A stretch of DNA of 64,000 bases, from NCBI RefSeq assembly GCF_000179235.2, contig NZ_CP039373.1:2328554-2392553 (forward strand), written 5' to 3'. The number at the start of each line of letters is the position of its first letter. Position 1 is the stretch's first letter. The position numbers and the translations under genes are program-made. The stretch is from Synechococcus sp. CB0101. GTDB lineage: Bacteria; Cyanobacteriota; Cyanobacteriia; PCC-6307; Cyanobiaceae. The notes under the pieces were generated by a model. That model did not search any database and was not told where the DNA came from. It was given only the letters and a program-made list of their open reading frames with translations. Below are positions 35,443-37,248 of this stretch, piece after piece.

Positions 35443-36438
35443 TCAAGCCGCCAGATAAGCACCCATCTGCTGAGAGAGCCGGCGCATCTCCTCGTGGGCG
35501 CGGCGCTCGAGGCTGCGGGCCCGGTCGCGGCTCATCTCCAGTTCGCGGGCGATGGAGCTGAGGCTCATCGGTTCTTCGATACCGATGCCATAACGCATTT
35601 TCAGCACCCGGCCCTGCAGCTCCGGCAGCTGATCGAGCAGATCACGCATGTCGCTGCGAAGGCACTCGCCATCCACCAGCTCTTCCGGCTGGGTCCCGTC
35701 GGCTGCCAGCAGATCGAGTAGTTCGGTGTCGTCGCCGTCGCCCACCTTGGTTTCCAGGCTCACGGGCTGACGGGCGCGGCAGAGCAGATCCTTCACCTCC
35801 TCCTCCGGCAGCTCCACAAACTCCGCCAGCTCCGTCACCGTTGGGGTGCGGCCCAACTCCTGGCTCAGTTCCCGCTGGCCTTTCTTGAGCTTGTTCAGCG
35901 TTTCAGTGATGTGGATCGGCAGGCGAATCGTGCGGCTCTTCTCCGCGATCGCCCGCGTAATGCCCTGGCGGATCCACCAATAGGCATAAGTGGAGAACTT
36001 GTAGCCGCGGGTGGGGTCGAACTTCTCCACGCCCCGCACCAGGCCGATCGTGCCCTCCTGGATCAGGTCCAGGAGTTCCATGTTCCGCTTGGTGTATTTC
36101 TTCGCCACGCTCACCACCAGGCGCAGGTTGGCCGCCACCATCCGCTCCTTGGCCCGCTGGCCGGAGCGCAGGCGCTTCTTGAGCTGTTGCGGGGTAAGCT
36201 GCGCCGCCTCAGCCAGCTGGGCATCAGTGGGGTCTTCGCCACCGGCGCGCAGACGCAGCTCTTCGCGCTGCTCCTCCAAGGCCATCAGCTCCTGCACCTG
36301 GCGGCCGAGGGTGATCTCCTGCTCATGGGTGAGCAGCGGCACCCGACCGATATCCCGGAGGTAGGAGCGCACCAAGTCGGTGCCGCCGGCGAGGGCAGCA
36401 GCATCACGCTCGGAACGGATCACCGGAAGCGAGGGCAT
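35443..36438 (-). CDS. Group 2 RNA polymerase sigma-70 factor
   Basis: 331 residues. Region 1.2 (TDLVRSYLRDIGRVPLLTHE), region 2 (RLVVSVAKKYTKRNMELLDL and TYAYWWIRQGITRAI) and region 4 (MSLSSIARELEMSRDRARSL) are all complete, and region 1.1 is absent. This is the layout of the non-essential, stress- or light-responsive cyanobacterial sigma factors (SigB/C/D/E type). The start ATG at 36438 lies 10 bases after a perfect 12-bp inverted repeat. Divergent from the pseudouridine synthase. Confidence 0.95.
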   Translation of the reverse strand: MPSLPVIRSERDAAALAGGTDLVRSYLRDIGRVPLLTHEQEITLGRQVQELMALEEQREELRLRAGGEDPTDAQLAEAAQLTPQQLKKRLRSGQRAKERMVAANLRLVVSVAKKYTKRNMELLDLIQEGTIGLVRGVEKFDPTRGYKFSTYAYWWIRQGITRAIAEKSRTIRLPIHITETLNKLKKGQRELSQELGRTPTVTELAEFVELPEEEVKDLLCRARQPVSLETKVGDGDDTELLDLLAADGTQPEELVDGECLRSDMRDLLDQLPELQGRVLKMRYGIGIEEPMSLSSIARELEMSRDRARSLERRAHEEMRRLSQQMGAYLAA

Positions 36439-36447
36439 GAAGCGACG

Positions 36448-36477
36448 GGTTTACGAAACTCAGGTGTTTCGTAAACC
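36448..36477 (-). promoter_or_regulatory. Perfect 12-bp inverted repeat in the sigma-factor leader
   Basis: The arms are GGTTTACGAAAC (36448-36459) and GTTTCGTAAACC (36466-36477), separated by six bases. In the sigma transcript this is a hairpin placed immediately before the start codon, and no Shine-Dalgarno is visible between them. It could be an operator for a dimeric regulator or an RNA element controlling translation. On the plus strand a T6 run begins eight bases later, so weak termination is less likely. Confidence 0.75.
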
Positions 36478-36522
36478 TACCACCTTTTTTCTGGGCAGAA
36501 TGAAGCTCCAAAGGCCCTTGCC

Positions 36523-37248
36523 ATGCCCGAAGAGCGGCTGCAGAAGCTGATCGCTGCCGCCGGTCTCGGCTCGCGCCGGTACGCGGAAACCCTGCTGCGG
36601 GCAGGGCGCGTGAGTGTGAATGGGCGCACCGCCGAGCTAGGAGAACGGGCTGATCCCGAGCGCGATGCCATCTGCATCGATGGCGAACCGCTGCGCCCGG
36701 CGCAACCGCCTCTGGCATTGCTGCTCAATAAACCGGCGGGTGTGATGTGCAGCTGCCACGACCCTGAAGGCCGGCCGATTGTTCTGGATCTGTTGCCCCC
36801 GGAATTGGCCTCGGGTCAGGGGCTACACCCGGTGGGCCGCCTCGATTTCCACAGCCGCGGGGCGCTGCTGCTCAGCAACAACGGCGCTCTCACCCTGCAG
36901 CTCACCCACCCCCGCTTCCAGCACAGCAAGACCTATCGAATCTGGGTGCGCGGCCAGCCCAGCCAAACCGTGCTCGATCGCTGGGCCCGTGGGGTGCCCC
37001 TCGACGGACTACCGAGCCAACCGGTGACCCTGCATCGCCTGGATCAAGAGCACGATGCCACCCAGCTGCAGCTGGTGATGCACGAGGGGCGCAACCGCCA
37101 GATCCGCCGCACCGCCGAGCTCCTGGGCCATCCGGTGCTCGACCTGCAGCGGGTGGCGATCGGATCGATCGAACTGGGCGAGCTACCAGAGGGTCGCTGG
37201 AGACGCCTGGATCCCCAAGAATGGCCTGACACCCACCCCCGGCCTTAA
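36523..37248 (+). CDS. Pseudouridine synthase, RsuA/RluB/RluE family
   Basis: 241 residues. An S4 RNA-binding domain (ERLQKLIAAAGLGSRRYAET) is followed by the catalytic domain, with LLNKPAGVMCS and the nucleophile aspartate in HPVGRLDFHSRGALLLSNN. The terminal segment (EGRNRQIRRTAELLGHPVLDL) is conserved. It modifies rRNA or, for RluE types, 23S U2457. The stop overlaps the start of the RodZ-like gene (TAATG). Confidence 0.93.
   Translation: MPEERLQKLIAAAGLGSRRYAETLLRAGRVSVNGRTAELGERADPERDAICIDGEPLRPAQPPLALLLNKPAGVMCSCHDPEGRPIVLDLLPPELASGQGLHPVGRLDFHSRGALLLSNNGALTLQLTHPRFQHSKTYRIWVRGQPSQTVLDRWARGVPLDGLPSQPVTLHRLDQEHDATQLQLVMHEGRNRQIRRTAELLGHPVLDLQRVAIGSIELGELPEGRWRRLDPQEWPDTHPRP

Follow-up and report, generated by a model that had tools for sequence, protein, structure and literature searches.

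A putative SufR operator at a duplicated sigma factor gene of Synechococcus sp. CB0101 and related picocyanobacteria

A palindrome between a sigma factor gene and a divergent synthase gene

In Synechococcus sp. CB0101, the region between a sigma factor gene and a divergent pseudouridine synthase gene contains a perfect palindrome, which raises the question of what recognizes it and which of the two genes it controls. The window analyzed here is the whole stretch of 64,000 nucleotides, and positions are counted from its first letter. The features on which the analysis relies are the following.

36448..36477, no strand: palindrome, putative SufR operator, perfect 12+6+12, with core TTACGAAAC-N6-GTTTCGTAA at 36451-36474
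35443..36438, minus strand: gene for a sigma factor of 331 aa, probably of group 2, and the proposed target; matches to TIGR02997 and to Pfam sigma regions 1.2, 2, 3, and 4
36523..37248, plus strand: pseudouridine synthase gene of the RsuA type, divergent marker gene; match to TIGR00093
36474..36482, minus strand: extended -10 element predicted for the sigma promoter, with sequence TGGTAGGTT and consensus TGnTANNNT, which overlaps the edge of the operator
36466..36468, minus strand: transcription start predicted for the sigma gene, within the operator and 6 to 8 nt downstream of the -10 hexamer

As an earlier, sequence-only reading of this DNA had described, the left arm (36448-36459, GGTTTACGAAAC) and the right arm (36466-36477, GTTTCGTAAACC) form an inverted repeat of 12 bp with 100% complementarity around a 6-nt spacer, TCAGGT. 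That reading had also placed it ten bases from the sigma ATG; it is indeed close, and the count is nine (36439-36447, on the minus strand), with 45 bases on the synthase side. By eye, no purine run of the Shine-Dalgarno kind lies between the palindrome and the ATG, as had been claimed. The NtcA box is GTAN8TAC and a cyanobacterial LexA box is also known; the palindrome resembles neither by eye, again in agreement with the earlier account, and both were set aside as its identity. The palindrome is the only perfect inverted repeat in the 64-kb window with arms of at least 12 bases and a spacer of 3 to 10, and such repeats averaged 0.067 per window in 30 first-order Markov simulations. The 2.79-Mb genome has a single copy of its 22-base form and, allowing up to three mismatches, two copies of the 18-base core (reversed control pattern, none). 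The number of core sites expected in 2.79 Mb is 2.6e-6 (perfect) or 1.8e-4 (at most one mismatch) with the base composition of the window, and 4e-5 or 2e-3 with equal bases. On the simulations and the expected counts, a chance origin was rejected.

The sigma gene scored 434.8 bits (cut-off, 384.5) against TIGR02997, a model of cyanobacterial RpoD/SigA-type sigma factors that does not separate group 1 from group 2. It fell below the cut-offs of the RpoD models NF005643 (317.8 of 500) and NF004208 (305 of 555), and likewise of the SigC and SigD models. The genome gave eight sigma matches, one of them 44% identical and located in a 515-aa frame, and the sigma factor of the window is probably a group 2 member. 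The divergent synthase scored 171.7 bits against TIGR00093 (cut-off, 109.3). Ahead of it, a GCAGAAT box at 36495-36501 reads in the synthase direction and has a similar form in most genus members by eye; it is perhaps the -10 element of the synthase.

The same sequence at sufR and a changed half-site

The genome scan for the arm pair that the sequence-only reading had proposed as a check returned one further core site, with one mismatch, at C1:2624550-2624573. This second site lies between the gene for SufR (TIGR02702, 217.3 bits; cut-off, 178.8) and the divergent ftrC-sufB-sufC genes, of which sufB and sufC were assigned from matches to NF008773 and TIGR01978 and ftrC was named by eye, with no NCBIfam match. 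SufR had not been named in the earlier reading. It is reported to be a dimer with [4Fe-4S] clusters that represses sufBCDS and sufR, with repression relieved by cluster reduction, and sufBCDS expression is reported to rise when iron is limiting and in oxidative stress (PMC13421787, PMC7058544). In marine Synechococcus WH7803, another study reports sufBCDS as mostly up in low temperature and likewise in high light and late UV (PMC7393227). For the SufR operator, the literature gives CAAC-N6-GTTG (PMC13421787; PMC4755962). The palindrome shares with it an inverted repeat separated by a 6-nt spacer, and has GAAAC/GTTTC in place of the CAAC/GTTG half-site. In addition, the genome encodes a SufR protein with the conserved cysteines, and the same sequence stands between its sufR and suf genes.

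To place this difference, sufR loci inside and outside the picocyanobacterial family of the strain were compared. Within 600 nt upstream of sufR, GAAAC-N6-GTTTC was found in 30/30 family loci (the 30 best among 150 matching genomes) and in none of the 27 outside loci listed among 66 matching genomes beyond the family, whereas CAAC-N6-GTTG was found in 0/30 and 26/27, respectively, the one outside locus without it being L431. A further 39 family sufR regions carried the site at up to three mismatches in 33 cases, and five of the remaining six had GAAAC-N6-GTTTC with other outer bases. One genome, G072, has sufR yet shows no site either at sufR/suf or at the sigma-synthase locus. Within the genus, the gap between sufR and ftrC-sufB holds the site in 24/25 genomes, the exception being G003, which is 86% complete. 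Judged by these loci, the half-site of the family is changed from CAAC to GAAAC, with the geometry kept. The operator of Synechocystis sp. PCC 6803, located between sufR and sufBCDS, is likewise an inverted repeat with N6 and AAC/GTT as its inner bases, and the window's sequence similarly recurs, with one mismatch, in the sufR-suf gap of its own genome. In contrast to Synechocystis, the half-site here is GAAAC with conserved outer TTAC/GTAA bases instead of CAAC, and a further site stands at a sigma factor gene. The family loci read have one site at sufR, compared with often two or three outside the family. Rv1460, the SufR homologue of Mycobacterium tuberculosis, is likewise described as a SufR-type repressor of a suf operon (PMC6034842).

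The protein differs along with the site. The presumed recognition helix of SufR reads SVQxMRRHLR (x = V, I, or A) in 16/16 family rows, while HLK, with I, V, or T replacing M, was found in all 16 outside rows, drawn from 16 of the 27 outside loci. SufR proteins inside and outside the family share mostly 38 to 47% identity and differ at many positions, which keeps the helix change from proving a change in specificity. By eye, four cysteine columns are conserved in 32/32 rows (16 family and 16 outside). SufR and its operator may have moved together to the new half-site in the family, and jointly with the two-promoter arrangement of the sigma gene described below we regard this as an even bet; the repressor would offer a natural example in which operator and recognition helix possibly changed in step.

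A dimeric regulator other than SufR could be supposed to bind the palindrome in the suf promoter as well as in the sigma promoter, given that the half-site departs from the published one. We consider this unlikely, since in the sufR-suf gap the site stands where the known SufR operator stands and keeps its N6 spacing, the 30 family loci read having exchanged one half-site completely for the other; the distribution of sufR, given below, argues in the same direction.

Distribution of the site and the gene that it accompanies

A search of 25 genus genomes for the core at up to three mismatches gave 48 sites (reversed control pattern, 6), of which 19 lay at the sigma gene, 24 at sufR/ftrC-sufB, and 2 at an ammonium transporter gene, the other 3 being weak. 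The sigma site is thus found in 19/25 genomes, and in the six without it (G006, G009, G012, G014, G021, and G024) the synthase of the locus was truncated or not found. Across 201 family genomes, the 22-base pattern matched in 44, belonging to 11 of 59 genera (reversed control, 7 genomes); among the 30 loci listed, 29 show the sigma gene, the synthase gene, or both, and L032 shows neither. Footprinting at orthologous sigma genes, another check proposed earlier, found the arms in all 47 family loci in which a sigma gene of the window's type is visible. These sites were located with an N6 pattern; when spacers of 4 to 8 nt were allowed on 61 loci, N6 was again found, with N7 appearing just as an overlapping shifted match at two loci. 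Genus included, sites at sigma occur in 17 genera of one picocyanobacterial family. Among 64 named cyanobacterial records around the synthase (L062-L125), some of which are probably genomes also counted in the sets above, ten had a sigma match and all ten had the site, while L064, beyond these ten, has a site 2 kb from the synthase and close to a contig end; the other 53 showed neither a sigma match nor a site. Among the named carriers are Cyanobium sp. (L067), Synechococcus sp. CS-1329 (L069) and CS-1332 (L071), and Prochlorococcus sp. AG-412-I05 (L075).

Placement was more informative than number in a further set of 36 family genomes, which includes A+T-rich ones. Here, TNACGAAAC-N6-GTTTCGTNA at up to two mismatches gave 47 matches and the reversed control 46, so the count alone is no evidence. 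By coordinate comparison with the sufR and sigma loci, 25 of the 47 fell between sufR and the suf genes, 15 at sigma, and 7 elsewhere; three of these seven were in genomes without sufR (G087 and G089, 2 of 9 such genomes).

The arms allow a decision between a site in DNA and a structure in RNA, both of which the sequence-only reading had entertained. A hairpin that governs sigma translation from the ribosome entry site of the mRNA has in its favor an adjoining ATG that lacks a Shine-Dalgarno sequence and a predicted fold of -32.7 kcal/mol for the stretch 36400-36485 (minus strand), with the palindrome as its stem if it is fully transcribed. However, the nine arm pairs of the 47 sites, 423 cells in all, included 0 compensatory changes, 7 G-T pairs, and 29 broken pairs, and arm positions 5 to 7 were invariant across the 47 sites. 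The arms are hence conserved as sequence, and this pattern of variation fits protein-DNA contact and not a conserved stem. Moreover, the left arm contains the predicted start point, the same sequence stands at varied distances before ftrC, and Rfam gave no match at gathering score at the palindrome. The hairpin was rejected on the zero compensatory changes and the predicted start point, and we regard it as very unlikely. Of the two findings that the earlier reading had named as refuting, orthologues without the arms did not turn up; arm variation free of compensation is seen, and it weighs against the RNA option only. Of the two options, the DNA site for a dimeric protein is the one supported, by the conserved arms, by an N6 spacer fixed in length and free in sequence, and by the recurrence of the site at sufR/suf.

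The next question was which gene the site belongs to, and for this we read the region upstream of the synthase in 54 family genomes outside the genus, hand-picked at one to few per genus and mostly near-complete. The sigma gene was visible upstream of the synthase in 28 of the 54, and a site lay near the sigma start in 28/28. Another 20 genomes had neither a sigma match over 1.6 to 2.6 kb upstream of the synthase nor a site, and the same held for G138 over the 1.4 kb read. The five others reach a contig end in less than 0.5 kb; among them, G061 shows the site with no visible sigma gene. In G041, G074, G077, G160, and G197, about 2 kb part the sigma gene from the synthase, and the site stays beside the sigma gene. 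The palindrome does occupy the promoter space of the synthase, as the sequence-only reading had noted, and the conserved GCAGAAT-like box faces that way, yet an operator serving mainly the synthase deserves next to no credence: the site keeps to sigma across the 2-kb gap, and is missing from 11 genomes that have sufR and no sigma gene 1.6 to 2.6 kb upstream of the synthase, as well as from nine without sufR. The synthase was rejected as the main target, and is probably a neighbor only.

The site at this locus co-occurred with sufR. The sigma-synthase site was found in 28/40 readable genomes with sufR and in 0/9 without, absence of sufR meaning no detection at E <= 1e-20 (Fisher p = 1.4e-4, with the genomes treated as independent and kinship ignored); the complete absence from the latter counts against a regulator other than SufR. 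The nine SufR-less genomes in which the locus was read have no sigma copy upstream of the synthase. Near-complete small family genomes without a SufR match at this threshold include G033, G087, G040, G062, and G108. Among the 12 genomes with sufR and no site, a search for close sigma copies covered G084, G202, G047, G055, G067, and G081, each of which has a single one; the other six of the 12 are G133, G092, G102, G072, G034, and G138.

The arrangement of the sigma promoter bears on what a bound protein would do. TGnTANNNT stands at the operator edge in a nearly fixed register, with one base of play, in 44/47 loci, compared with 44/5600 random 17-nt windows of 28 family loci, a contrast that is somewhat flattering, since the pattern was picked after alignment and its last T belongs to the operator. 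The exceptions in register are L012, L015, and L019, all from genus genomes, where a 13-nt insertion between the -10 box and the operator shifts the box, offering a natural experiment on spacing. On the suf side, a TANNNT-like box precedes the operator by 4 to 5 nt in the ftrC direction (by eye). Because the extended -10 element abuts the operator, bound SufR is expected to lie over the sigma start point, and the same is expected at the suf promoter.

With a probability of about 0.87, the palindrome is a SufR operator of lineage-specific form, TTACGAAAC-N6-GTTTCGTAA, through which cluster-loaded SufR would repress the duplicated sigma gene. This reading draws on the conserved site, its common occurrence at sufR/suf, its tie to sigma, the consensus promoter layout, and the co-occurrence with sufR; from these we infer SufR as the binder, repression and not activation, the signal, and the targets of the sigma factor. 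A SufR dimer with its cluster would bind across the -10 edge and the start point of the sigma promoter and block RNA polymerase there, in the way it acts on its own suf operon. With clusters lost, reduced, or unbuilt, for instance under iron limitation, oxidative stress, or over-reduction, SufR would release the DNA, and the sigma factor would be made alongside the SUF assembly machinery. Since operator and layout are common to both promoters, the sigma gene is most likely repressed like suf. That SufR binds here and instead activates or merely tunes the sigma gene is scarcely credible, since an operator that starts at the -10 element and covers the predicted start is expected to block polymerase and the suf promoter is similarly laid out.

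The sigma duplicate and further matches

The sigma gene of the window has a sibling at G000:C1:1695089-1696057 with 87% identity and without the operator, the next paralogues being at about 50% identity. A search for close copies in 29 genomes found two or more in 19 and one in 9; G041 gave no match at the close-copy threshold, though its sigma locus and operator had been read. The operator is at the synthase-side copy in all 19 multi-copy genomes, and the inner core, at up to two mismatches, was found in 0/24 of the 500-base regions before the aligned start of sibling copies. The two copies within one genome are 78 to 99% identical in 15 genomes (in G160, over 151 aa). In the tree, G057, G160 (one row of 151 aa), G093, G075, G054, and G123 each have their own copies paired. 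Bootstrap support is unsettled, 16 of the 42 inner branches are open, and both outgroup rows are very long-branched, which leaves the deep parts of the tree uninformative. A single old duplication giving two clean clades was rejected on the six same-genome pairs. Gene conversion between copies that keep different promoters appears to be the simplest reading, the copies seeming to evolve in concert in several genera; duplications recurring at one place, each with the same operator, seem less likely. We give equal odds for and against the composite picture of a sigma switch with two promoters, in which the gene is duplicated, the copies are kept alike by gene conversion, and one of them is under SufR.

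If so, cells losing Fe-S clusters would make more of a sigma factor that has changed little, and a local SUF repair response would lead into a global transcription program. Duplicated sigma genes that differ in their promoters would also make a natural case for study. More broadly, Fe-S status would be tied to wider transcription in abundant phototrophs (Synechococcus, Cyanobium, and Prochlorococcus), and a shortage of Fe-S clusters could directly switch on a wider genetic program in these cyanobacteria. What appears new for the known repressor SufR is the sigma gene as a target class, together with the changed half-site, and an earlier prediction is possible. RegPrecise, which includes a cyanobacterial SufR set, stood with subscription papers outside the literature searched on SufR sites, regulons, Prochlorococcus, and iron limitation with sigma factors, in which no SufR-sigma link was found. 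The passages available from PMC7058544, PMC7393227, PMC4755962, PMC5970561, and PMC13421787 likewise name no such link. SufR is described in the available part of one of these as a local regulator of Fe-S assembly acting on sufBCDS, sufR, and ftrC (PMC13421787). The same passages place the group 2 sigma genes rpoD3/sigD, rpoD5/sigC, rpoD6, and rpoD2/sigB under the control of RpaB, RpaA, and Rre1 (PMC13421787). The arrangement proposed here resembles theirs in that a stress-responsive regulator would act directly on a sigma gene, here probably of group 2 (PMC13421787); in contrast, RpaB, RpaA, and Rre1 are response regulators with other motifs, and SufR is a one-component Fe-S sensor.

A few matches lie apart from both loci, and we take them as regulon members that are unproven or as chance. 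Sites with two to three mismatches in G018, G022, and G024 had no suf or sigma match nearby, and one match in G054 falls inside a reading frame. G067, which has a single close sigma copy, carries a perfect palindrome, TTGCGAAAC-N6-GTTTCGCAA, between two genes (G067:C20:9416-9439, L445). A third core site, TTGCGAAAC-TTTTTG-GTTTCGTAA, occurs in only G020 and G022 of the 25 genus genomes (L181:2001-2024 and L184:2001-2024). It precedes, by about 100 bases, an ammonium transporter gene, identified by a PF00909 match on the G020 copy, to which the G022 copy is alike by eye, and this gene is a possible extension of the regulon.
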